The notes beneath the pieces were generated by a model. That model was not told the origin of the DNA. It ran no database searches and saw only the letters and a program-made list of their open reading frames with translations. Shown here in pieces: positions 1,190-13,394 of a DNA stretch of 64,000 bases (within the stretch, counting starts at the first letter, position 1; every line of letters starts with the position of its first letter). The stretch comes from Enterococcus haemoperoxidus ATCC BAA-382 (GTDB lineage: Bacteria; Bacillota; Bacilli; Lactobacillales; Enterococcaceae): positions 817,464-881,463 of the forward strand of contig NZ_KE136479.1 of assembly GCF_000407165.1 (NCBI RefSeq). The letters are read 5' to 3'. The translations under genes and the position numbers were made by a program.

Positions 1190-3640
1190 GTGAAAAAAAA
1201 TAAGTGGAGAGCTTTCGTGGTTATCTGTTTTATGTTACTTGGAATTTACTATATAAATACTAGTAAAGATAAAGCCATACTGGCTGCTCCAGAAAACTAC
1301 AATGATATCTTATTAGCTCCAGGCATTAATATCGCCAATGGGGTAGGGACAGATACTGAAATCCCAGGAGATTTTGGTACAATGTTCAAACTGACCAAAG
1401 AGGTTAGTTATGAAGTCAAAGGCTTAAAAGATCCGGTAAATGATGTACTTGTAAAAACAGGTTCAGGAATAAATGACCCAAAAGCTTCAAAAGTATTTCG
1501 ATTTAGTCCTGATAATGTTGTACCTGAAAAAAGTGTTTTGGTAAAGAATGCAGGACTTTACAATGGCAGAAGCATTGATTTAAAGCTAGTGATCGACGAT
1601 ATGGATATTGCACCCGATGAGACGACTGGAAAATATCCATATGTAAACTTTATGGCGGTAAACTATAACGACAAAGACAAAACGGATGAAATTCCATCAA
1701 CCAATATAAAGGTCTGGAATGAAATGTTTTTAATGTTCGGAAGTGCGACAAGAAGTAGTTCAGGATTCAATGATGCCTACGCTATTGGAGACAAAGTAGA
1801 CTATCATTATGAATTTTTTGACCATGAAACGGGCGCTGCAGTGAATTTCCAAGGTACTTGGAATTTTAATAACATCAATGGCTTGAAAGCCGTAACAACA
1901 GACTTTGATGGGGATTTCAATAATTTATATGTGTTAAAAGATACGTGGATTGGTTATTTGAAAGATACACCGAAAGCTGGAAAGCTTGAGCTTTACGGTA
2001 CGAATACAACAGTCAATAGTGAAAGAAGTCTTTTGACTCAGCTTTTTTCCGGAAAAACATTTTATACAAGTCTAGAACGCAGATCGGCAACAACGAGCGT
2101 TAGACCAAGTCAAATGGTTGTAATGTATGGAACGCAATCTCTCGCTAGGATAGCACCAGCTACGCCGATAGTCTATGGCGTGAAAAATGAAGCAACGCAT
2201 ACCGATGCGGATTATCTGAATCTGACATATTCAATACTACAAACAATTCCTGATAATAAAATTGAGAATAGAGATGACTCGTTCAAAATCGAAACTGAAG
2301 TACCAAGTGTTTATGATATCGATTTATCTGCCATTAAGATTTTTGAATATGGTACAGATAAAGAGTGGACTAGCTTATTCAAAATAGATAAAGAGCCAAA
2401 CAACTCAAGTAAATTAATCTTGAATGCGGATTTATCAACGGCTACTAATGCAGAAAACTTTAATGGAAAAGTATTTGATATCAAGATAAAAGCAAAGACA
2501 AATGCTTCATTTAATTTTAATAAAAATGATACAACTTACGGATATCAAAGTAGTGGGGCCGACAACGGTTATATGACTTTTGAACTTGCAGGACCAAAAA
2601 CCAATGCATCTTATACTTATACTACTTCAAGTGGAGGAATATTAAGTGATACGTTAGACTCAAAAATTGTTGAGGGACAAACAAAATCAAAAGTTCTTTA
2701 TGAAGGGGTGCCTAGTGCAGATTCTAAAGAAAATATCAAAATACCAATTGGGGCAAATTTTACAATTGACTATCCTCAACCAGGTGATTCCTTTTTAGAG
2801 AATATCCGTGTAGACACAGAAAATTTAATCGATCAGCCAATAAGTGTTACCTACACTAAGGGGAAAACATTACCTGATACATCAGTGCTTGGAGATACGA
2901 CTTTATGGTTAACATTAACAACAGCTAAAAACGTTACAAAAGATATCGAGGTAAAAGTAACCATTGTCCCAACAGCCGCCGAGTTACGGGTCAAATACAA
3001 AATTAATGGCAGTTATATGACAGATAAATACCCCGATTATGTTGATTCAACTCAAATGATTGGTGCGCCAATTAACTTGAAGAATATCAAACAAGTTACA
3101 GATACACTTGATGCAATTAAAGAAGCTGGATATAAACAGACCAATACACCAATAGAAGAATTTAATCTCTCTGCTAATGGTAATACGATAGAGTATGAAT
3201 TTGAAGGAACTTTATTCCTCTTTTCAAGCCCAACTATTCTGGATTTTGGGATTGAAGAGGCAAGTTATAAAGCGATTCGAGTGAACGAAGCTCAACTTGA
3301 TAAAGCATTGATCATCAAAGATACCCGAGCTGTCAAGCAGAAATGGACATTGTCAGCAAAGCTTACACAAGATTTTACCTTAACTGAAACAGATGGGACT
3401 AAAAAGATTATCCCGGATATTCTACGCTATAACGACGGTACAGATGAAGAAAAAAAATTCAATCTTACAGAAAAACGTGATTTGTTGGTAGATGAACATA
3501 CAACAAGTAATGAATATGATGTGAGCAAAACCTGGAATTCAAATGGCAAAGGATTTAAGTTGGATGTACCTGGAGATACTGTTAAAACACTAGGAAAGTA
3601 TCAAGCAAAAATCGAATTTACAGTAAATGCAACGCCTTAA
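1190..3640 (+). CDS. Large secreted WxL-domain surface protein
   Basis: This 816-residue protein starts with GTG at 1190 behind a strong GAGGAGGTG ribosome site. It has a Sec signal peptide (basic MKKNKWR, a hydrophobic stretch to about residue 25, likely cleavage near AILAAPEN) and no membrane anchor. The long extracellular body resembles the bacterial large WxL proteins. Near the C-terminus is one canonical WxL motif (W719-T-L, in KQKWTLSAKLTQDF). The protein ends in KIEFTVNATP, where the second motif would normally be W-x-L, so that second copy is degenerate. WxL domains bind peptidoglycan non-covalently. It heads a run of tightly spaced surface genes with a small FPSTG protein, two small WxL proteins and a DUF916 protein, the usual partners of WxL complexes. 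Ligand unknown. Confidence 0.85.
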   Translation: MKKNKWRAFVVICFMLLGIYYINTSKDKAILAAPENYNDILLAPGINIANGVGTDTEIPGDFGTMFKLTKEVSYEVKGLKDPVNDVLVKTGSGINDPKASKVFRFSPDNVVPEKSVLVKNAGLYNGRSIDLKLVIDDMDIAPDETTGKYPYVNFMAVNYNDKDKTDEIPSTNIKVWNEMFLMFGSATRSSSGFNDAYAIGDKVDYHYEFFDHETGAAVNFQGTWNFNNINGLKAVTTDFDGDFNNLYVLKDTWIGYLKDTPKAGKLELYGTNTTVNSERSLLTQLFSGKTFYTSLERRSATTSVRPSQMVVMYGTQSLARIAPATPIVYGVKNEATHTDADYLNLTYSILQTIPDNKIENRDDSFKIETEVPSVYDIDLSAIKIFEYGTDKEWTSLFKIDKEPNNSSKLILNADLSTATNAENFNGKVFDIKIKAKTNASFNFNKNDTTYGYQSSGADNGYMTFELAGPKTNASYTYTTSSGGILSDTLDSKIVEGQTKSKVLYEGVPSADSKENIKIPIGANFTIDYPQPGDSFLENIRVDTENLIDQPISVTYTKGKTLPDTSVLGDTTLWLTLTTAKNVTKDIEVKVTIVPTAAELRVKYKINGSYMTDKYPDYVDSTQMIGAPINLKNIKQVTDTLDAIKEAGYKQTNTPIEEFNLSANGNTIEYEFEGTLFLFSSPTILDFGIEEASYKAIRVNEAQLDKALIIKDTRAVKQKWTLSAKLTQDFTLTETDGTKKIIPDILRYNDGTDEEKKFNLTEKRDLLVDEHTTSNEYDVSKTWNSNGKGFKLDVPGDTVKTLGKYQAKIEFTVNATP

Positions 3641-3661: not shown

Positions 3662-4000
3662 TTGATCATGAAAAAAATAAACATTAGTGTTGCTCTGGTT
3701 TTTCTTGTTTTTGTAGGCTGTCTTTTTACTGTAAAGTCTACTTCGGTTTATGGAGCGCAAGCTGCTGTGCAAACGAATGGAGAAATTGTTTTTACAACAG
3801 AAAGTTCCCAGACGTCATCGACAACAAGTGGCTCTAGTGAAGAATCAATAAAAAAACCTGTGGGTAAGTTCCCTTCAACAGGGGAATTGGTCGTAAGAAG
3901 TCTATCCGTAAGCGGATTTGTTCTAGTCTTGATCGTATTTGCTTTTTATCTATTAAAAAGAAGGAGTGCCACTGACGGGAAGGACGGTCAAAGCCAATGA
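3662..4000 (+). CDS. Small sortase-anchored surface protein (FPSTG motif)
   Basis: This short protein (112 residues from TTG at 3662, 110 from ATG at 3668) has an N-terminal signal peptide (about residues 1-32), a Ser/Thr-rich spacer, the sortase-type motif FPSTGE near residue 75, a hydrophobic segment and a KRR tail. That architecture is a cell-wall sorting signal, with F replacing the usual L of LPxTG. The ribosome site AAAGGAG (3645-3651) is 10 bases from the TTG and 16 from the ATG, which favours TTG. Small LPxTG-like proteins are a standard member of WxL loci and probably tether the complex to peptidoglycan. Its stop overlaps the next start (ATGA), which suggests translational coupling. 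Confidence 0.8.
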   Translation: MIMKKINISVALVFLVFVGCLFTVKSTSVYGAQAAVQTNGEIVFTTESSQTSSTTSGSSEESIKKPVGKFPSTGELVVRSLSVSGFVLVLIVFAFYLLKRRSATDGKDGQSQ

Positions 4001-4794
4001 AAAAAATAGCATTTGCGATTGTTTTTCTTGGCACCGTGCTATTATCTTACGGACAATTTGATCAAGTACAAGCACAAGAATCTCGCGAAGGTGGAGCTGA
4101 AATTGATCTTAAACGGTTTAAAGAAAATAACTCCATCATTCGAGATCCAGAAAATCCAGAAGTACAGGTTGATCCCGGTGAAACTCCACAAACAAAAGGA
4201 GACTTACGGATTGATTTTGTACCTAAATTAAACTTTAGTACAGTGCCAATTTTAGATAAAACAGCTGTATTTCCAGTGAATGCTCAATTATTCCACGACG
4301 ATACAGGTGCTAGGGGGAATTTTATCCAAGTATCCGATTATCGTGATGATCCCACTGGCTGGACCTTACAAGTTAGACAAGAACAGCAATTTAAGCATGC
4401 GATAAAACAAGGCGTAGAACTAAAAGGCGCAGTGATTTCATTAGATCAAATATGGACGAACTCAACAAAAGATGCTTCACTTTCACCCAGTGTTTCCAAA
4501 GAAGTAATTCATATGAGTAATGTTGGAGATACTTATAATTTGGCACAAGCTCAGCCTGAAAAAGGTTCTGGGACATGGAGCATCATCTTTGGGGCATCAA
4601 AAGAAAATAAAAATGATCGTCCAAATTCATTAGAACAACGATTGGATTCTTCTGGTAAAGAAATAGAAGACCCAACCTTCAAAAAGCCTGTTTACAGTAA
4701 TCAAGCGATCACTCTTTCTGTTCCAAAAGAAACAGAAAAACAAACAGGTGCTTATTCCACGGTGTTAACTTGGATATTAGCCGAGTTACCATAG
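3997..4794 (+). CDS. WxL-domain surface protein
   Basis: This protein of 265 residues has a signal peptide ending near VQAQES (about residue 28). The acidic N-terminal linker (residues 30-65) is followed by a WxL domain with both hallmark segments: W122-T-L in TGWTLQVRQEQQF and the terminal TWILAELP. Small WxL proteins of this size attach non-covalently to peptidoglycan and form complexes with DUF916 proteins on the enterococcal surface. The ATG overlaps the stop of the FPSTG protein by four bases and the next WxL gene starts 29 bases after its stop, so it belongs to one operon. Confidence 0.9.
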   Translation: MKKIAFAIVFLGTVLLSYGQFDQVQAQESREGGAEIDLKRFKENNSIIRDPENPEVQVDPGETPQTKGDLRIDFVPKLNFSTVPILDKTAVFPVNAQLFHDDTGARGNFIQVSDYRDDPTGWTLQVRQEQQFKHAIKQGVELKGAVISLDQIWTNSTKDASLSPSVSKEVIHMSNVGDTYNLAQAQPEKGSGTWSIIFGASKENKNDRPNSLEQRLDSSGKEIEDPTFKKPVYSNQAITLSVPKETEKQTGAYSTVLTWILAELP

Positions 4795-4823: not shown

Positions 4824-5615
4824 ATGAAATTAACACACAAATTAGCTGGTACAGCGTTACTAGCAGCAGTAGCGGTAGCAGCAACAGCTCCAGGAGTAAC
4901 AAAAGCCGCAGATCCAGCAGCACCAGGAGTTGGAGAAGGAGAAATCGAATTCACAAGTAAAACATATGGTTCATATGATTCTTCAGGTGTTGTACCACCA
5001 GATTATACTAGCCAATCAACAATCGACACTGATTCAACAGCGTTACTAGATGGACCATTCTTAGTACAAGGAATGTCTAAATTAGTGTTTAATTCGCAAT
5101 CAGCGACAACCGGAGCAGTAACGTCATGGGCTCAACCAACTAAAGCAAATGCTGGTATGACAAATGAAGTAGACAATCGTGCAAACTGGGTACAATTTAA
5201 AGATGATCGCCAAGTAGATGACCATGGTTATGAATTGAAAGCTGTTATCTCTCAAAACTTCCAATTTAACGACACTGAAAAAGGGAAAGTTAGAAATATT
5301 AAAGGTGCTCAAATCACATATGGTAACGCAAACCTAGTAGCGGATAAAGATAATGAATCGTTAAAACCTTCTTCTACAGGGCTTAACAAGGCAGCAAAAG
5401 TGAATGAAACGGGTTCAGAATTAGTATTCAAAAATATGGAAGAAACAAAAGGACGCGGACGTTATGCTGTTTACTTTGGTGATGCTTTGGACGATACACA
5501 ACCAGCAAACGAGTCTGTTAAATTAGATCTTCCAGCAAACCAAGCTGAAGAAATCATGAATGGTAAATACGTTGCGAAAATCACTTGGACACTTGAAGCA
5601 ACGCCAAAACCATAA
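4824..5615 (+). CDS. WxL-domain surface protein, first motif degenerate
   Basis: A 263-residue secreted protein with a strong signal peptide (Ala/Val-rich, cleavage near TKAADP, about residue 29) and a good AGGAGG site. The C-terminal motif is canonical (KITWTLEATPKP, W255). At the position of the first WxL tryptophan it has tyrosine (Y136-E-L in HGYELKAVISQNF), which departs from the other WxL protein next to it. Codon use is cleaner and more biased (many GCA, ACA, GTA codons) than in its neighbours, which suggests high expression. It is the last gene before a 210-base gap holding a large hairpin. Likely the abundant cell-wall-bound component of the complex, by analogy with other WxL loci. 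Confidence 0.88.
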   Translation: MKLTHKLAGTALLAAVAVAATAPGVTKAADPAAPGVGEGEIEFTSKTYGSYDSSGVVPPDYTSQSTIDTDSTALLDGPFLVQGMSKLVFNSQSATTGAVTSWAQPTKANAGMTNEVDNRANWVQFKDDRQVDDHGYELKAVISQNFQFNDTEKGKVRNIKGAQITYGNANLVADKDNESLKPSSTGLNKAAKVNETGSELVFKNMEETKGRGRYAVYFGDALDDTQPANESVKLDLPANQAEEIMNGKYVAKITWTLEATPKP

Positions 5616-5826: not shown

Positions 5827-6876
5827 ATGAAGAAACGAATCGGCATAGGGCTTTTTTTTAGTCTATACATAGTGGCGCTTCTTGGATTTTCTACACCAGC
5901 ACATGCGAATTTACAGTTTACGTATGAAACGGTAAAACCAGAAAATCAGCAAGGAGATTTTGAGTATTTTAATTTACTTATGCAACCTGGGCAAAAGCAA
6001 ACAGTGCAAGTTATGTTGTCAAATCGCGCAGATGAGGAACAAACCATTGAAGTTGGTTTAAATGGCGCAAAAACAAATTCAAACGGTGTTTTAGAATTCG
6101 GACCAAGTGCCATAAAAAACGATGCGTCATTAAAATATGATTTTAAAGATCTAGTCAAAGGGCCCAAAGAAATGACCTTAGGACCTAATGAAACTCGTCC
6201 ATTAAATATAGAAATCAGTATGCCTGAAACCAATTATATTGGAAAAATTGTTGGAGGGATCCACTTAAAATCTAAACCGACGAAAAAAGAAGAAGAAGAA
6301 AATAAAAAAGCAACAGGAGTCATCAATGAATATGCCTTTGTTATTGGTATGGTATTGAGTGAATCAGATACTGTAATAAAACCAGAGTTAAGTTTGAATA
6401 AGGTCTATGCTGGCTTGGCTAACTATCGTAATAGTATTTTTGCTAATTTTTCAAATACAAGTGCTGATTTTGTCAATAATATGACAGTTGAAATGGAAGT
6501 GACCAAAAAAGGATCAGAGGCTGTTTTATACGATATAAAACGAGCAGATATGCGGATGGCACCTAACTCAATGATTGATTTTCCTTTAGAGATGAATGGA
6601 GATCAGATGGAAGCGGGTGATTATAAGGCTCATATTGTTGTCACAAGTGGTGAAGAAAAATGGACGTTTGACAAAGCATTTAAAATCACAAATGAAGAGG
6701 CTGATAAATACAACGCACAAGATGTCACATTGATTCAAGAAAGAGGAATTGATTGGAAGTTGATTGCACTGATCGTAGGCGGTGTCTTTGTTACGTTCTT
6801 GGCTATTTTCTTTATCGTTCGTAGCATGAATAAGAAAAAGAATAGTAAAAAGAGAGGAAAGAAAAAGCGTAAATAA
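5827..6876 (+). CDS. DUF916/DUF3324 WxL-interacting protein, membrane anchored
   Basis: This 349-residue protein has a signal peptide (residues 1-27, cleavage near AHANLQF), an N-terminal DUF916-type domain (about 30-155, including the LLMQPGQKQTVQVML and GPNETRPLNIEISMP segments), a DUF3324-type domain (about 165-295), one transmembrane helix (about 310-332) and a very basic tail. In WxL loci this family (also called WxLIP) binds peptidoglycan and WxL partners, and in some cases host matrix proteins. It lies after the WxL genes and just 17 bases before the next gene, so it opens the second half of the cluster. Confidence 0.9.
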   Translation: MKKRIGIGLFFSLYIVALLGFSTPAHANLQFTYETVKPENQQGDFEYFNLLMQPGQKQTVQVMLSNRADEEQTIEVGLNGAKTNSNGVLEFGPSAIKNDASLKYDFKDLVKGPKEMTLGPNETRPLNIEISMPETNYIGKIVGGIHLKSKPTKKEEEENKKATGVINEYAFVIGMVLSESDTVIKPELSLNKVYAGLANYRNSIFANFSNTSADFVNNMTVEMEVTKKGSEAVLYDIKRADMRMAPNSMIDFPLEMNGDQMEAGDYKAHIVVTSGEEKWTFDKAFKITNEEADKYNAQDVTLIQERGIDWKLIALIVGGVFVTFLAIFFIVRSMNKKKNSKKRGKKKRK

Positions 6877-6893: not shown

Positions 6894-7562
6894 GTGGTTT
6901 TATTAGATTGGTTTTTTATTGGTTTACTTTCTTTTGCGATCCTCTGTTTTTTACTGTTGCTTTTTTGTCTTTTATATTTCTTTTCAATCAAAAAGGAATT
7001 AAGAAAGAAACAATGGCACAAGCGACCTAAAAATAAAATGAAAAGAAAAAAATGGTTGCGTGCAAGGAAATCGTTAGAAATACGAAAGAAACGCTATGCT
7101 ACTAAAGTTTTTATTTTGTTCGTTGTGATGTTTATTTCAGCAGGCAGCGCATTTTATGCACGATACTACCAGTTGACCAATCTAACATCAGAAGATGCAA
7201 AAGTTGTTGTTCAGGGGTATCTGTTAACAGAAGATCTAAAAGAGAAAATGATAACGATCAAAGAAGGTGGCAGTGCTGAAAAAGTCTATCCGCAATTTCA
7301 AGAAGTCAGTGCCTTGTTAGTCTCATACGGAAATCGGCCTGTATCAGGAGGCTTATCAACGGAAGGTGCAAAGTTATTGACTCGTTATTATGTATCTATG
7401 AAAAACGTTGGGTTAAACTTATCTACTTTAAGCCAGACACAATTAGAACAGCAAGAGACGATCGACGGCTATCTAAAAGATGTCGAAAGAATCAATGAAC
7501 GACAAAAAGCCGTCTTCAGTTACTTTAAAGTCAACGAGTCGGCACTGAAACAAAAAAATTAG
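6894..7562 (+). CDS. Unknown bitopic membrane protein with a basic cytoplasmic loop
   Basis: I do not recognise a family. The protein of 222 residues starts with GTG behind AAGGAG. It has a long hydrophobic helix at about 5-30, a Lys/Arg-rich loop at 33-72, a second helix at about 73-92, and a soluble C-terminal region of about 130 residues that should be outside. That outer part is helical and contains no Cys. It is followed 10 bases later by the signal peptidase homologue. The same highly basic cytoplasmic character occurs in the next two proteins, so these three may share a location or partner. Likely a scaffold or accessory membrane protein for the WxL system; this is inference from position. 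Confidence 0.6.
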   Translation: MVLLDWFFIGLLSFAILCFLLLLFCLLYFFSIKKELRKKQWHKRPKNKMKRKKWLRARKSLEIRKKRYATKVFILFVVMFISAGSAFYARYYQLTNLTSEDAKVVVQGYLLTEDLKEKMITIKEGGSAEKVYPQFQEVSALLVSYGNRPVSGGLSTEGAKLLTRYYVSMKNVGLNLSTLSQTQLEQQETIDGYLKDVERINERQKAVFSYFKVNESALKQKN

Positions 7563-7572
7563 GAGTCTCAAG

Positions 7573-8334
7573 ATGAAACAAGCGAATACAACATCTAAGA
7601 AGAGATCGTCTAAGAAAAAACAAAAAGAGAAAAATCAGCAATTAAAACGAAAACAACCAATAAAAAAGAAGAGTGATTTTGCTGAGACAGCGAAAACTAA
7701 CAGAATTTCTTCAAAGAAAAAAAGACCTGCTCAATCAAAACAGGTCCAATTTAAAAAGAAAAAGACAAAAAGAACGTTAAAAAAACGAAAAAAGCAAAGA
7801 CACCAATTTTATAAAGAAATCGGTGTCAGCTTTTTTCTAATGCTAGCTCTTTTTTTTATCTTGCAAGGGTTATTTTTTAGTATGCCCTCAGTCAATGGTT
7901 ACGGAATGACAACGACTTTGAATGATGGGGATCGTATTTTTGTTAGCAAACGTAGTCGAATTAAGCGATTTGATTTAGTCTACCTTAAACAACCAGATAC
8001 AAAACAAATAATGGTTAGAAGAGTGATTGGGTTACCAGAAGAAGAAATAGTTTACGAAAATGATCAATTGTTGATTGATAAAAGGCCAGTAGTAGAACGT
8101 TTTTTAAAAAATGAGATTAGTGAAGCAAGCAAAGAAAAACGTTTATTAACAGAAGATTTTACGTTGGCGGCTTTAACTGGAGTAAGAACATTGCCCAAAG
8201 ACTGCTATTTTGTATTGGGAGATAATCGCCATTATGCAGCGGATAGTCGCGAGTTTGGTTGGGTCGAAAAAAAAGATATTTTAGGCGTTGTAAAAGCGAG
8301 AATAGTTCCTTTTCATCATATGACGCAATTTTAA
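7573..8334 (+). CDS. Type I signal peptidase homologue lacking both catalytic residues
   Basis: A protein of 253 residues with an 80-residue very basic cytoplasmic tail, one transmembrane helix (about 82-103) and a signal peptidase I fold. The family boxes are present: box B-like VNGYGMTTTL at 107-116, box D-like MVRRVIGLPEE at 147-157, and box E GDNRHYAADSRE. In active enzymes the first box reads G-x-S-M-x-P and the second K-R-x-x-G. Here the nucleophilic Ser is Gly111 and the general-base Lys is Arg149. The neighbour just downstream keeps both residues, so the loss is specific. By known biology, a catalytically dead homologue (SipA in streptococcal pilus loci) acts in assembly rather than cleavage. 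A similar chaperone role here is an inference. Confidence 0.85.
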   Translation: MKQANTTSKKRSSKKKQKEKNQQLKRKQPIKKKSDFAETAKTNRISSKKKRPAQSKQVQFKKKKTKRTLKKRKKQRHQFYKEIGVSFFLMLALFFILQGLFFSMPSVNGYGMTTTLNDGDRIFVSKRSRIKRFDLVYLKQPDTKQIMVRRVIGLPEEEIVYENDQLLIDKRPVVERFLKNEISEASKEKRLLTEDFTLAALTGVRTLPKDCYFVLGDNRHYAADSREFGWVEKKDILGVVKARIVPFHHMTQF

Positions 8335-8375
8335 AAGAAGAATCTTGAATTCATTACATAGTGGGAGGGCAATCG

Positions 8376-9047
8376 GTGTCTACAAAGAGCACGCATCCGC
8401 AAGCAACAAAAAAAAGAATTTCAACTAAAAAGAAACGACGTAATTATTCAAAAGAGAAAAGAGTAAAATTCCTGAAAAAGCAATGTATTAAAACAAAACA
8501 AACAATAAAAATACGTGATATTTTTTTTCTACTAATCCTTTCTTTTTGTTTTATCTTTTTATTCCAACATAAGACCCATCGAGTATCCGGATCATCGATG
8601 CAGCCTATTTTAGAAAATAGTGATCGTATTATTGTAAAAAAAGGCCAGTTACCTGAGCGGTATGACGTGATTACGTTTGACCCAGAAATTCCGGATGAAT
8701 CTAGCTACGTAAAACGAGTCATCGGTATTCCAGGAGATCAAATATGGGCAGAGTCAAATGCTATTTATCTTAGACCACAAAAGGCTGGTAAGTGGCTATT
8801 GAACACGGCAAATCAAATTTCCGCAGAGGAGTTACCAGACAGTACATTAAAAGTGATAGTCAGTAAAGAAGTTTTTCAAACTTTAAGAGACATGCACAGG
8901 ATTCCAGAAGGAAATTATGTTGTGTTAGGAGACAATCGAAGTGCTTCGAAAGATAGCCGTACAATGGGCCTGATCAAGGAAAAACAAATCGAAGGTATTG
9001 TAACGTATCGTTACTTTCCGTTGACTAAAATCGGTCGAGTAAAATAG
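8376..9047 (+). CDS. Type I signal peptidase, catalytically intact
   Basis: I start it at GTG 8376, which has the GGGAGGG site 6 bases upstream; a GTG at 8361 lies before that site. The 223-residue protein has a basic cytoplasmic tail (residues 1-47), one transmembrane helix (about 49-65) and all signal peptidase I boxes: VSGSSMQPIL with Ser74 in the nucleophile position, YVKRVIGIPGD with Lys113 as general base, and GDNRSASKDSR. It should cleave signal peptides outside the membrane. Placed right after an inactive paralogue and within a WxL operon, it probably matures the secreted WxL and anchor proteins of this locus, in addition to or in place of the housekeeping enzyme. Confidence 0.9.
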   Translation: MSTKSTHPQATKKRISTKKKRRNYSKEKRVKFLKKQCIKTKQTIKIRDIFFLLILSFCFIFLFQHKTHRVSGSSMQPILENSDRIIVKKGQLPERYDVITFDPEIPDESSYVKRVIGIPGDQIWAESNAIYLRPQKAGKWLLNTANQISAEELPDSTLKVIVSKEVFQTLRDMHRIPEGNYVVLGDNRSASKDSRTMGLIKEKQIEGIVTYRYFPLTKIGRVK

Positions 9048-9083
9048 CAAATGAAATAGTGAATGTATAGGAGGAATTACCAG

Positions 9084-11687
9084 ATGATAAGGATTGATTG
9101 GATAAAACAGAAAGGCTGGGCTTTTCTTTTAAGTATTCTTTTACCTATGGGAATTATGTGTTTTGTCTATTTTCTTTTAGGAATCTATCCAGGCAGTGAC
9201 AAGACAATTTTAGCCAGTGATGCTTTGTCGCAAACCTCTAATTTTTTTGCAAGTTTAAACAATGTTTTACACGGAAAACAAAGTTTTTTCTATTCATGGT
9301 ATGGATCATTGGGGCTAAATTATTGGTCTTTTATGGCTTATTATTTAAACGGAATTTTTAGTCCATTAATTTATTTTTTTGACAATAGCCAAGTACCTGA
9401 TGCACTGTATCTGATTATTATATTGAAATTTGGTGCTATTGGCGGTGCTTTTTGGATCATGAGTGATCAAACCTTTAAGATCGCGCAATGGGGCAAAGTG
9501 ATGCTTAGTGTTAGTTATGCGTTAAGTGGTTTTGCAGTTGCATATTCTCCTCAGCAAATGTGGTTGGATGGCTTGATTTATTTACCATTAGTGATTTTAG
9601 GGATTCATCGTTTGATGGATAGCAGAAAACCAGCACTCTTATTTAGTAGCTACTTGCTTTTATTTTTATCCAATTTTTATATGGCGTTTATGATTGGAGT
9701 GTTTTCATTTCTCTATGTTTTTTGTCGTTTTTTAACAGATCCAACAAGGTATAAAAATAGTTTGATTCCTTATTTGATTACCTCATTATTAGCAGGTGGA
9801 GCTTCGATGGTCACCATATTACCTACGTTATTTGATTTGAAAAATAACGGAGAGAGCTTAACAACGTTACAAACTTTTTTTACAAAAGACACAGGTATTT
9901 GGGATATTCCAGTTAAAACAATGGTTGGTGTTTATGATACAAGTAAATTCGGAAGTTCACCGTTTCTTTATTTTGGGTTGTTAGGTCTGGTTTTTTGCCT
10001 ATTTTACTTTATCAGTCCTAAATTTCCATTGAAAAATAAACTGTTATATGGCAGTTTGTTCCTATTACTGATTGGAAGTGTCTATATCGAGTCACTCAAT
10101 TTATTTTGGCACGGTTTTCACTCACCCAATATGTTTTTATTTCGTTTTAGCTTTCTTTTTTCATTTTTAGGCTTATTATTAGCTGGATTTGGATTGGAAA
10201 AAGTGACCAAAGAAGACACCAATCAGTTGGTCAATATCGTGATGGGAATGATCATACTGTACATTGCTATTATCTTTTTCGCTAATCGAAAACGATATGA
10301 TTTTTTAGATAAAACCTCGATCGTAGCTACAGTTTTATTCTTGCTCGTTTATCTTTCGATGTGGTTTATTTGTGTAAAGTGGTATAAAAATAAGCGACTT
10401 TGGTGGTGCTTGTTACTTATTGTTTTTATTGGTGAAATTACGATGAATACACAACGAATGGTGACCGGGATCAATCAAGAATGGCACTATCCAGAACGTA
10501 TGGCTTATGATCGGAATTATCAGGATGTTCATCAATTAGTCGAGGCGACAGAAAAAGAGAATGATACATTATATCGCTTAGCTAATTTAAATAGTATATC
10601 TAGAAATGAGAGTTTCATTTATGGATATAGCGGAGTGTCCATGTTTTCCTCAATTCGTAATCGTCATTCGTCTATGTATTTGGATGCGCTAGGGTTTCGC
10701 TCGAATGGAACGAATTTAACGATACAATATGCGAATAATACCTTAGTGATGGATGCTTTATTGGGAATCAAGTACAACATTGCACAAAAAGATCCGCAAA
10801 AATATGGTTTTACATTAAAGGAGACTGCAGGCAAACATCAACTATACGAAAACCGTTTGACTCTCCCTCTTGGAATTTTAACCGATCAAGGAATTTATAA
10901 GAAAGATGCTGTGAAAAATCAGTCTGAACTGATTCAGTATTTATCAAATCAAAAAGAGCAACTGTTTTATTTTTCGGAAGCGGAAATGATCAAGCAAGAA
11001 AATGTCCAGATTGAAGACAAAGGCTCATTTCTTTTTTACTCAAAAACGATTCCAAATAAATTACGAAAAATGACCTATTCAATCAACGTTCCGGCTCGTT
11101 CACAAGCTTATCTAAGTTTATATGGAAGAGGGATGGATGTTGATGCAATCATCAAAGTAAATGGGGTGGAACAACGTTCCGGTCTTGAAGAAAATGGTCA
11201 GTATTACAATCTTGGCTATTATGAAAAAGCTAAAAAAATCCAAGTTGAAGTAAGTTTTTCAGGAGAAGGTGTCGTTCATTTAGTGAAGCCAACTGCTATG
11301 TTTATGGATGTGGATGTATTTGAAAAATCAGTGCAATCAATTCAAAAAAAAGGCGTTGCATTTAAAACAAAGGGACGAGTGGCTAAAGCGGATGTAACTT
11401 TAGAGAAAGCACAAGTTGTATTGACTACAATTCCTTATGATAGAGGTTGGAGTGCTTATATTGATGGGAAAAAAGTGAAAATTCCGACCTTTAAGGATGC
11501 TTTTTTAGCTTTACCTGTGCCTAAAGGAACACACACAATAAAGCTTGTTTTTTTACCTGAAGGCTTTAAAGTCGGATTTGGTTTGTTCATTTGCTGTCTT
11601 ATTCTTTTTATCTTTTACAACTGGTGGATGGTCAAAGAAGCTAGGCAAACAAAATTGATTGAAGATGATCAGGGAAAAGGGGTTTAA
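9084..11687 (+). CDS. YfhO-family polytopic membrane protein
   Basis: I choose ATG 9084, which has AGGAGG 9 bases upstream, over an ATG at 9063 that precedes that site. The 867-residue protein has a run of about 12 transmembrane helices in the first two thirds (after the outside-loop motif GSDKTILASDAL), a large soluble domain, and a final helix with a cytoplasmic tail. This matches YfhO-type proteins, GT-C-like enzymes implicated in adding sugars to lipoteichoic acid or other surface polymers in Bacillus and Listeria. The outer domain ends with a beta-rich region (PYDRGWSAYIDGKKV) typical of the family. It follows the signal peptidases and is immediately followed by two lipoproteins. A role in glycosylating the WxL complex or its anchor polymer is inferred. 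Confidence 0.8.
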   Translation: MIRIDWIKQKGWAFLLSILLPMGIMCFVYFLLGIYPGSDKTILASDALSQTSNFFASLNNVLHGKQSFFYSWYGSLGLNYWSFMAYYLNGIFSPLIYFFDNSQVPDALYLIIILKFGAIGGAFWIMSDQTFKIAQWGKVMLSVSYALSGFAVAYSPQQMWLDGLIYLPLVILGIHRLMDSRKPALLFSSYLLLFLSNFYMAFMIGVFSFLYVFCRFLTDPTRYKNSLIPYLITSLLAGGASMVTILPTLFDLKNNGESLTTLQTFFTKDTGIWDIPVKTMVGVYDTSKFGSSPFLYFGLLGLVFCLFYFISPKFPLKNKLLYGSLFLLLIGSVYIESLNLFWHGFHSPNMFLFRFSFLFSFLGLLLAGFGLEKVTKEDTNQLVNIVMGMIILYIAIIFFANRKRYDFLDKTSIVATVLFLLVYLSMWFICVKWYKNKRLWWCLLLIVFIGEITMNTQRMVTGINQEWHYPERMAYDRNYQDVHQLVEATEKENDTLYRLANLNSISRNESFIYGYSGVSMFSSIRNRHSSMYLDALGFRSNGTNLTIQYANNTLVMDALLGIKYNIAQKDPQKYGFTLKETAGKHQLYENRLTLPLGILTDQGIYKKDAVKNQSELIQYLSNQKEQLFYFSEAEMIKQENVQIEDKGSFLFYSKTIPNKLRKMTYSINVPARSQAYLSLYGRGMDVDAIIKVNGVEQRSGLEENGQYYNLGYYEKAKKIQVEVSFSGEGVVHLVKPTAMFMDVDVFEKSVQSIQKKGVAFKTKGRVAKADVTLEKAQVVLTTIPYDRGWSAYIDGKKVKIPTFKDAFLALPVPKGTHTIKLVFLPEGFKVGFGLFICCLILFIFYNWWMVKEARQTKLIEDDQGKGV

Positions 11688-11688
11688 G

Positions 11689-12660
11689 ATGGATAAAAAA
11701 TATATCGGTTGGGTAATCATATTGCTAATTTTTATTAGTGGTTGTTCTGCTAAACTATCAGAGAAGAAAGAATCATTTTCTGGAAAAGGAATTACGTATA
11801 GCGTTCAATTGCCGAGTACGTGGGAGAAGTCTTTGGACTATAAAGTGACGTATAGTAATGAAGCATTATTCGGAGCAAAAGATACGAAAAGTAATTCAAC
11901 TTTAATGATTATGGCTGAAAGAAAAGACTTGATTGACCGGACTGATTTTGGTGAACGAATTAGAAAAGAATTACAAAAACAGTATAATTATAAAAAAGCA
12001 TCAGATATTTTTATGAAAGAGTTTAACGTTGGAAAATACAAAGGATATAAGTATACGCTGGATACAACTTTTAATAAGCGAGACTCCTGGCTGCATTTGT
12101 ATTACATTGAAACAGCTCATGGAATGGTTCAATTGAATTATTATTCAGCAAAAGATGGCAATTATGAAAAACGAGCGAAAATCATTGATGAGTCTGCTCG
12201 TTCAGTCAAAGAGATAGAAGATAAAGGTGCGAAAACAGATGAAGAAGAGGGAAACATTGTCTTTGAAAACGATACTCTTAATCTAGCCTTAACGGGTGTG
12301 ATGAATGTGACGGGTGAAGCAGATCAAAAAGTATTAGCGCTGAGATATACAGTTACAAATAAAGCGAAAGATCAATCAATAAAAGCGAATAAGTGGGATG
12401 AAACGATTCAAGTAACACAAAACGGAGTAATATTGGCCCAAGGGAATTTAGCGAAGAATAATTCAATCTTAGATATTCCTAAATTGATGGCGCAAAAAGA
12501 AGAAGAACTTCCTGCTGGCGGTTCACTTGAGGGCGTGACATTATACGAATTAAAAGAGGAGGGTGATGTATTGCTGGTTCCTAATAAAACTATTTTTAAA
12601 GATGCTAAAGATATTCCGATTGTTGTATTAAATGGTACAGAGAAAGCAGGGGAGAAATAA
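11689..12660 (+). CDS. Lipoprotein with PsbP-like and DUF5067-like regions
   Basis: The ATG at 11689 starts one base after the YfhO stop and has an AAAAGGGG site. The 323-residue protein has a lipoprotein signal peptide with lipobox ISGC (Cys19). The N-terminal half (about 30-160, GITYSVQLPSTWEK) looks like the PsbP/Mog1 fold of Gram-positive lipoproteins. The C-terminal half (about 190-310) has the pattern LALRYTVTNKA, TQNGVIL, a later Gly/Leu-rich strand, like the DUF5067 family. Function unknown; it should sit on the outer face of the membrane. It overlaps the start of the next lipoprotein by one base (TAATG), so the two are co-translated. Confidence 0.75.
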   Translation: MDKKYIGWVIILLIFISGCSAKLSEKKESFSGKGITYSVQLPSTWEKSLDYKVTYSNEALFGAKDTKSNSTLMIMAERKDLIDRTDFGERIRKELQKQYNYKKASDIFMKEFNVGKYKGYKYTLDTTFNKRDSWLHLYYIETAHGMVQLNYYSAKDGNYEKRAKIIDESARSVKEIEDKGAKTDEEEGNIVFENDTLNLALTGVMNVTGEADQKVLALRYTVTNKAKDQSIKANKWDETIQVTQNGVILAQGNLAKNNSILDIPKLMAQKEEELPAGGSLEGVTLYELKEEGDVLLVPNKTIFKDAKDIPIVVLNGTEKAGEK

Positions 12661-13394
12661 TGAAAAAATCTATTCTTTGTGTGGTATCTCTGATTACGTG
12701 TGTCGTAAGTATCAGTGGTTGTTTTTTTAAAAAAGAGGCTGCAAAAGTTGAGCATCAACAATTAATTTGGCATGATTCACGAGAGAAACCATTTGGTACA
12801 TTTGATTATCCGAAAATCACTGAAAAAGAAGCATTCGATCTATTAAAAACTAAATTTGACGTAAAAGTTCCCAGTTTAATTTTCAAAGTCAAAGAGATGC
12901 TGATCGAGGATGTCGGGACTAAAACGATGCAGATTGATGAGCCAGAATACACGATGTATGCTTCAGGAGACGAATTAAAAATGCGTGCGTATTATCCGCT
13001 GGATGAAGACAACGAGTTACGAGTATTTGCGTTGGTTGATTTAAAATATTCATTTAATAAAGAGAAGAAAGAAGTTCGTTTGACTTCTCAAAAATTATCC
13101 ATGACGACTTATGGTGACAAAGTAACCTATCCTAAAGATAATTTTACTGAATTATTAGCTAAAAGTGCAGAAATTATTGAACTTCCAAAGAAACAGTCAG
13201 ATACAGCCATACAACATTTTAATGCTGATTATAACGAACTCGACAAACGACCAGTGTCTTCAAAGGCTATTGTTTACAGTAACGATAAAGAAGCAGCAGA
13301 GAAAAAGCAGGTATCACAGGCAATTTTAGGTGGTTTTGATAGCAAACAAGAATTAAAAGAGATTTACGCAACAATTGTTGATTATACGGATTAA
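12660..13394 (+). CDS. Small lipoprotein, unknown function
   Basis: This 244-residue protein starts at ATG 12660 within the stop of the preceding gene. Its signal peptide ends in ISGC (Cys21), a clear lipobox. After a Lys-rich linker the mature part is a mixed alpha/beta domain with no motif I recognise. It closes the surface operon: the next 340 bases contain a repeat element and a strong terminator. Coupling to the preceding lipoprotein suggests they act together, perhaps as accessory factors of the YfhO protein or the WxL complex. Confidence 0.7.
   Translation: MKKSILCVVSLITCVVSISGCFFKKEAAKVEHQQLIWHDSREKPFGTFDYPKITEKEAFDLLKTKFDVKVPSLIFKVKEMLIEDVGTKTMQIDEPEYTMYASGDELKMRAYYPLDEDNELRVFALVDLKYSFNKEKKEVRLTSQKLSMTTYGDKVTYPKDNFTELLAKSAEIIELPKKQSDTAIQHFNADYNELDKRPVSSKAIVYSNDKEAAEKKQVSQAILGGFDSKQELKEIYATIVDYTD

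Follow-up and report, generated by a model that had tools for sequence, protein, structure and literature searches.

The window analyzed here is a 64,000-nucleotide stretch of Enterococcus haemoperoxidus ATCC BAA-382 (RefSeq assembly GCF_000407165.1, contig NZ_KE136479.1, forward-strand positions 817,464 to 881,463). Its positions 7573-9047 hold two adjacent genes for proteins of the type I signal peptidase family S26, inside a run of co-directional genes on the plus strand whose products are a large WxL protein, a short LPXTG protein, two small WxL proteins (WxL1 and WxL2), WxLIP, a 222-residue membrane protein, the two S26 proteins and a YfhO-type protein. The first S26 gene (7573..8334; PF10502 at 6.6e-36, TIGR02227 at 2.5e-35) encodes a pseudo-signal peptidase with a basic tail, one transmembrane helix and an S26 domain. 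The second (8376..9047; PF10502 at 3.5e-35, computed from an alternative start, GTG 8361) encodes a type I signal peptidase predicted to be catalytically intact. Just upstream of both lies the gene for the uncharacterized 222-residue protein (6894..7562), which is predicted to form two transmembrane helices and a four-helix outer domain (AlphaFold pLDDT 89.4) and for which a Pfam search gives nothing over cut-off. As far as sequence can tell, the pseudo-peptidase has kept the fold and membrane placement of a signal peptidase, has lost its general base, is under purifying selection, and belongs to a WxL operon in which the 222-residue protein is its usual partner.

In the first S26 protein, residues G109-Y110-G111-M112 and V148-R149-R150-V151 occupy the nucleophile and base boxes. 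G111 and R149 align with the catalytic Ser and Lys of genuine signal peptidases in PDB sequence matches, and an alignment of all 19 S26 homologs of the same genome gives the same assignment, so the original prediction had the residue numbers right in placing Gly111 and Arg149 where Ser and Lys should be. It was also right that the other boxes are kept: box E (GDNR..DSR) is retained in both proteins, and the pseudo-peptidase combines an S26 fold and conserved boxes with a missing Ser-Lys dyad. The second protein keeps Ser74 and Lys113, as had been claimed, when counted from the better start, GTG 8376 (Ser79 and Lys118 from GTG 8361). Eleven of the 19 homologs are encoded directly after a gene for the 222-residue protein, within WxL operons arranged in the same way. 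None of these 11 has the Lys (Arg in nine, Leu in one, Gln in one), and five keep the Ser. The other eight, four of them second copies and four encoded elsewhere, all have both Ser and Lys. The residue loss in the first S26 protein is therefore not a chance event.

The cytoplasmic tails of these proteins are rich in Lys and Arg, with a median of 62 residues and 41% Lys plus Arg in first copies, and 50 residues and 36% in second copies; in three of the four S26 proteins encoded outside WxL loci in this genome the tail is only 9-15 residues long. The ends of WxLIP and the inner loop of the 222-residue protein are likewise basic.

We pooled 105 distinct loci, counted after removal of identical 222-residue proteins. 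All were drawn through the gene for that protein, so the sample cannot give the frequency of dead copies that lack it, a matter on which the control set described below bears. An S26 gene is said to follow if it lies within 4.5 kb downstream of the 222-residue gene; in loci L066 and L122 a large gene intervenes. A further 60 stretches were picked from listings of the 222-residue family before their S26 genes had been seen, and all 60 were parsed (one was empty, and some repeat loci of the earlier scan); loci L073-L102, from the search of the order, and L001-L016, from searches of the E. haemoperoxidus genome, were left out of separate parsing. In the first 53 loci (11 from this genome, 42 scanned) an S26 gene follows in 52, with the Lys replaced in every one (Arg 49, Leu 2, Gln 1), Ser kept in 27 and Tyr or Phe preceding the Ser site in all 52; a second S26 gene is present in 26, each time with Ser and Lys. 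Each of the 52 members scanned hits TIGR02227, the signal peptidase I model, with an E-value of 0.001 or less, the window copy far over the curated cut-off, so that annotation hides the family.

Across the whole pool, an S26 gene follows in 95 of 105 loci and the Lys is gone in 94 of the 95 (Arg 87, Leu 3, Gln 2, Phe 1, Val 1). The Ser site holds Ser in 53 copies, Gly in 31, Ala in 8, Met in 2 and Arg in 1. Since the Lys is almost invariably gone but Ser is kept in more than half, the family rule is loss of Lys and not of both residues; the earlier statement that exactly the two catalytic residues are lost holds for the window copy and fails for its relatives. Enterococcaceae show the rule most strictly: all 81 copies lack the Lys, all 81 have Tyr or Phe before the Ser site, and 80 have Tyr or Phe at what we take to be position 277 in LepB numbering; in the window copy an aromatic pair stands at residues 110 and 221. 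In a second family of the order (f8), 13 of 14 copies lack the Lys and the aromatic signature is looser, with Tyr before the Ser site in nine of 14. The 81 Enterococcaceae copies share no Lys or His at the 90% level that could stand in for the dyad, and no alternative dyad was found.

As a control we took 55 S26 homologs not encoded after a 222-residue gene, from 12 genomes, five with the module and seven without (locus L216 was dropped as a duplicate of L192, a few low-scoring fragments were left out, and in L195 the Ser site is unread because the open reading frame as called starts after it). The Lys is missing in two of the 55, L208, which lies beside a WxLIP and lacks Ser as well, and L212, whose 10 kb stretch contains no WxL gene. 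In a third, L207, a lone S26 gene in a stretch without a WxL or WxLIP match, Asp stands at the Ser site and Lys is kept. Dead S26 proteins outside the module exist but are rare, and the equal frequency elsewhere that would speak against a link to the module is not seen (2 of 55 against 94 of 95). One control genome (G014) contributes 12 stretches (L193-L204), each with a short S26 gene; Lys is kept in all 12 and Ser in all 11 that are readable, in four the called reading frame starts at or after the Ser, and nine of the 12 also have an LPXTG-like protein of 235-263 residues nearby.

In a quick tree of 137 rows, with poor support for 49 of 134 inner branches, a single change divides first from second S26 copies, which argues that the two are not recent tandem duplicates. 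When five other S26 proteins are added, two changes are needed for the first copies, with one not ruled out, and the Lys state needs three. The 94 Lys losses are not independent, and go back to one or very few old losses. The single exception, L141 (7123-7626), is the sole S26 after a 222-residue gene to have both Ser and Lys; the tree nests it among the first copies with good support, on a long end branch, where a return of the Lys and a wrong placement are indistinguishable. The Ser state requires at least 15 changes on the best tree. Counted per site, the nucleophile position has undergone 21 changes, a little below the median of 26 over 147 columns, as against seven at Arg149 and none at Arg150 or the neighboring Met; by these counts Ser is largely released from constraint and Arg149 is not. 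The base position of phage 186 CI, which belongs to the same superfamily, is occupied by an Arg that is described as contacting the nearby main chain (PMC12984324), so an Arg at this position can be structural. The ratio of nonsynonymous to synonymous substitution rates (dN/dS) is 0.083-0.138 for the pseudo-peptidase domain in six pairs (dS 0.86-1.48, high enough to make the values rough), 0.119-0.221 for the whole active copy, and 0.20-0.46 for the basic tail in five computable pairs. Distance correlations among five operon genes over 88 loci all lie between 0.77 and 0.86, and with values so uniform no pair is singled out.

The E. haemoperoxidus genome has 11 full-length matches to the 222-residue protein, one adjoining each Lys-less S26 (four more are short and weak), and 38 matches over cut-off to WxLIP, the protein that in the window is encoded at 5827..6876 (PF11797 at 1.9e-44, PF06030 at 4.3e-33) and consists of DUF916-DUF3324, a transmembrane helix and a basic tail. 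The module is therefore restricted to a subset of WxL loci. Neither an S26 gene nor a full 222-residue gene turned up in a further 25 stretches (L222-L246), of which 19 come from this genome and six from an E. faecalis genome, G001. For a genome of 3.58 Mb, 73 WxL-domain matches with E no higher than 0.001 (a few of them below cut-off), together with the WxLIP matches, indicate a very large expansion of WxL loci.

A collection scan for the 222-residue family returned 42 loci, all in Enterococcus. Whole-genome searches find it in 36 of 105 genomes of the same family, of which four or more give weak matches only, and in all 22 genomes of the genus among the matches listed (49 genomes without a match not being among them). 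Over the order it is found in 51 of 395 genomes; matches in f8 are strong, and most of those outside Enterococcaceae and f8 are near E 1e-4 and doubtful. The E. faecalis genome G001 (EF3073 identical over 150 residues), the one of that species recognized, has six WxLIP matches and four S26 proteins, all with Ser and Lys, and a whole-genome search gives no match to the 222-residue protein; that it has WxL loci without the module may be why the module has gone unnoticed. A mobilizable plasmid of E. wangshanyuanii (NZ_CP021876.1, L220) carries a diverged 222-residue gene beside genes for DUF916, leucine-rich repeat surface and WxL proteins, with no signal peptidase annotated within the 18.5 kb shown.

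The original prediction took the dead and active peptidases together as the module. This does not hold: of the 95 loci, 37 have a second S26 gene beside the first, with Ser and Lys in every case, and 58 have none, which rules out the pair as the unit. The commoner unit is the 222-residue protein and the pseudo-peptidase inside a WxL/WxLIP operon. YfhO is found in 32 of the 37 loci with a second S26 gene and in three loci without one, a pattern that suggests an optional cassette. In the window the YfhO-type membrane protein, perhaps a glycosyltransferase, is encoded at 9063..11687 (PF09586 at 5.5e-217) and resembles the glycosyltransferases PgfM1 and PgfM2 below cut-off; YfhO and the intact S26 may perhaps form a cassette that glycosylates surface proteins. 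The idea that Ser tends to be kept where the active copy is missing was considered and dropped (raw Fisher p 0.02, but p 1 with four independent pairs when the tree is taken into account).

The same counts bear on one alternative, in which the dead protein would be the receptor subunit of a two-part signal peptidase, selecting WxL precursors and presenting them to the neighboring or a housekeeping active enzyme. The intact copy adjoins it in 37 loci and never lacks its dyad, and the dead copy retains fold and box E with consistent changes in the positions round the active site. We nevertheless consider this unlikely, if worth keeping in view, given the 58 loci with no second copy alongside and the tendency of the intact copy to travel with YfhO.

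If the pseudo-peptidase handles an uncut precursor, the conserved signal peptide of WxL2 is a concrete candidate client. WxL2 is encoded at 4824..5615 (PF13731 at 1.8e-21), with its signal peptide at about 4824-4907. Over 97 loci with the full gene set, similarity between loci is higher in its signal peptide (0.419) than in its mature part (0.319), the reverse of what is seen for WxL1, WxLIP and the LPXTG protein. Excess identity, taken over the first 28 columns against a within-row shuffle baseline with duplicates removed, is 0.208 for WxL2 (n = 92), compared with 0.063 for WxL1 (94), 0.118 for WxLIP (94) and 0.076 for the LPXTG protein (95); non-module loci give 0.127 for small WxL proteins (n = 27) and 0.111 for WxLIP (n = 30). 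Within the E. haemoperoxidus genome the values are 0.240 for WxL2 (n = 11), 0.122 for WxL1 (11) and 0.118 for small WxL proteins outside the module (19). Gene conversion was weighed as a cause and is not wholly excluded: the fraction of identical residues sharing the same codon is 0.555 in the signal peptide versus 0.502 in the mature part in this genome, and 0.608 versus 0.510 over all 97 loci. As this codon excess is small, conservation of the WxL2 signal peptide is mainly at the protein level. A crude [AVST]xA scan for atypical cleavage sites was uninformative.

It is tempting, though we put it forward only tentatively, to see in the dead signal peptidase and the four-helix protein a signal-peptide receptor that holds the WxL2 signal peptide uncut, a checkpoint coupling export to WxL assembly. 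A rather doubtful alternative makes the pseudo-peptidase a competitive inhibitor or brake that shields signal peptides from the active enzyme and so times their release. A signal-peptidase fold without its base and the conserved WxL2 signal peptide would suit such a role; the similar signal peptide in loci with no S26 gene does not.

Residual cutting, whether at low activity or by another chemistry such as Ser with Arg or with another base, is very improbable. It could appeal to the Ser kept in 53 copies and to L141, a relative with the full dyad, but Ser is lost in 42 of 95 with the many state changes noted above, no candidate Lys or His is conserved, and in SipA, the dyad-less homolog of Streptococcus pyogenes pilus operons, mutating the Asp and Lys at or near the two sites is reported to have no visible effect (PMC4049620). 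That the gene is a decaying duplicate of its active neighbor, as two adjoining homologs with one inactive might suggest, is already contradicted by dN/dS well below 1, which argues against decay, by the single tree change that splits first from second copies, and by the presence of an S26 gene after the 222-residue gene in 95 of 105 loci.

On balance, we take 7573-8334 to encode a pseudo-enzyme of a dedicated WxL export and assembly module, which would act as a non-cutting, SipA-like assembly or retention factor. At the membrane, the pseudo-peptidase and the 222-residue four-helix protein would jointly bind one segment of an operon product that has just been exported, the likeliest candidate being the N-terminal region of one of the small WxL proteins. 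Held uncut, this segment would allow the WxL proteins, WxLIP and the LPXTG protein to assemble before release, and cleavage would then fall to a housekeeping signal peptidase, or to the dedicated intact copy in some loci. The selected non-enzymatic role foreseen by the original prediction is borne out to the extent that Lys loss is concentrated in WxL loci with the module (94 of 95, 2 of 55 elsewhere), dN/dS is low (0.083-0.138) and no substitute Lys or His stands at 90% in 81 copies.

Several observations pull the other way. Ser is kept in the majority of family copies, and L141 retains the whole dyad. Ten of the 105 loci with a 222-residue gene have no S26 gene within 4.5 kb downstream (one of them, L142, ends less than 750 bases from a contig edge), and in seven of nine such loci with a printed WxL2 start a WxL2-like signal peptide is still present by eye, so that its reader may be the 222-residue protein or neither. 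L208, L212 and L207 show that S26 proteins elsewhere (three of 55) can also lack Ser or Lys. No peptide tried in vitro is reported to bind SipA, and pilus polymerization was unaffected by a mutation that should have blocked its cleft (PMC4049620), an argument against the groove being the site of action in SipA.

The remaining genes of the run are those for the large WxL protein (1190..3640), whose C-terminal WxL domain is a weak match (PF13731 at E 0.0011, below cut-off alone; 25.4 bits with neighbors in frame in the genome search), the small LPXTG-type surface protein of the EF2685/EF0750 family (3662..4000; NF053819 at 5e-23, over cut-off) and WxL1 (3997..4794; PF13731 at 4.1e-39). Gaps of 10-41 bases separate its last five genes, from WxLIP to YfhO, if the second S26 is taken from GTG 8376. 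Shine-Dalgarno-like sequences are visible by eye before ATG 7573 (AGGAGT) and GTG 8376 (GGAGGG). A promoter and terminator scan was uninformative (35 promoter-like sites versus 48.3 in shuffles; 11 terminator-like versus 7.5). Two further genes, at 11659-13394, overlap with YfhO and with one another and may share its transcript; the first has a start like that of a lipoprotein. Upstream of the window (L221, G000:C1:808000-818700) lie groES/groEL-like and integrase-like genes and a small regulator-like gene with a conserved C-terminal motif by eye; similar regulator-like genes are seen by eye near WxL loci in L223, L225 and L226.

Among known systems, the closest in likely mode of action is SipA/LepA (PDB 4N31), which has a signal-peptidase fold without Ser and Lys, as does the window copy, keeps a peptide cleft, and is described as essential for pilus polymerization (PMC4049620, PMC7900414). 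The comparison made in the original prediction is apt as a way of working, and the pseudo-peptidase would work like SipA by analogy, with a probably separate origin; the comparison does not establish membership. S. pyogenes SipA has Asp and Gly at the two sites, a pairing reported not to be conserved in all SipA homologs (PMC4049620), whereas the window copy has Gly and Arg, the family has mostly Ser, Gly or Ala with Arg, and none of the 95 copies has Asp and Gly. The family profile is far nearer to the active peptidase 4me8 (1.9e-47) than to SipA (2e-10). SipA operons encode pilins and a dedicated sortase; here a family profile search of ten neighboring proteins found no sortase or pilin family, and the partner is a new membrane protein. 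SipF of S. suis keeps its dyad and is described as not essential for polymerization of the backbone pilin, polymers being weaker without it (PMC2797073). The best PDB sequence match for both window S26 proteins is E. faecalis EF3073 (PDB 4ME8), which keeps Ser and Lys and whose genome has no match to the 222-residue protein.

A further parallel is SpsA of Staphylococcus, whose gene we take to be adjacent to that of an active signal peptidase and presumably outside any WxL operon. It is a homolog without two conserved catalytic residues alongside active SpsB in the same organism, and is described as dispensable (PMC12445088). The family described here differs in being multi-copy, with 11 members in one genome, and in having a second copy beside it in only 37 of 95 loci. 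The gene set around it is that of WxL/Csc clusters, with large and small WxL proteins, WxLIP and a short LPXTG protein (PMC9772566, PMC1534035), the large WxL match here being weak. The accessible portions of the published cluster descriptions, which list small and large WxL, DUF916 and LPXTG proteins, name no peptidase as a cluster member, and the word 'peptidase' does not occur in the two cluster papers searched for it; PMC1534035, in the portion available, names signal peptidase I only as the enzyme processing WxL proteins. A table of E. caccae transcripts, as far as the source is accessible, has S26 peptidases and a WxL protein only in different rows (PMC6152273), and open-licence literature, mostly at the level of titles and abstracts, yielded no report of WxL loci with an inactive signal peptidase. 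We see here a multi-copy pseudo-signal peptidase family with a new partner, which probably evolved separately and is tied to a subset of the WxL systems, surface complexes found widely among Firmicutes, with an assembly still to be explained. It would add another setting, besides streptococcal pili, in which the signal-peptidase fold became an assembly factor.
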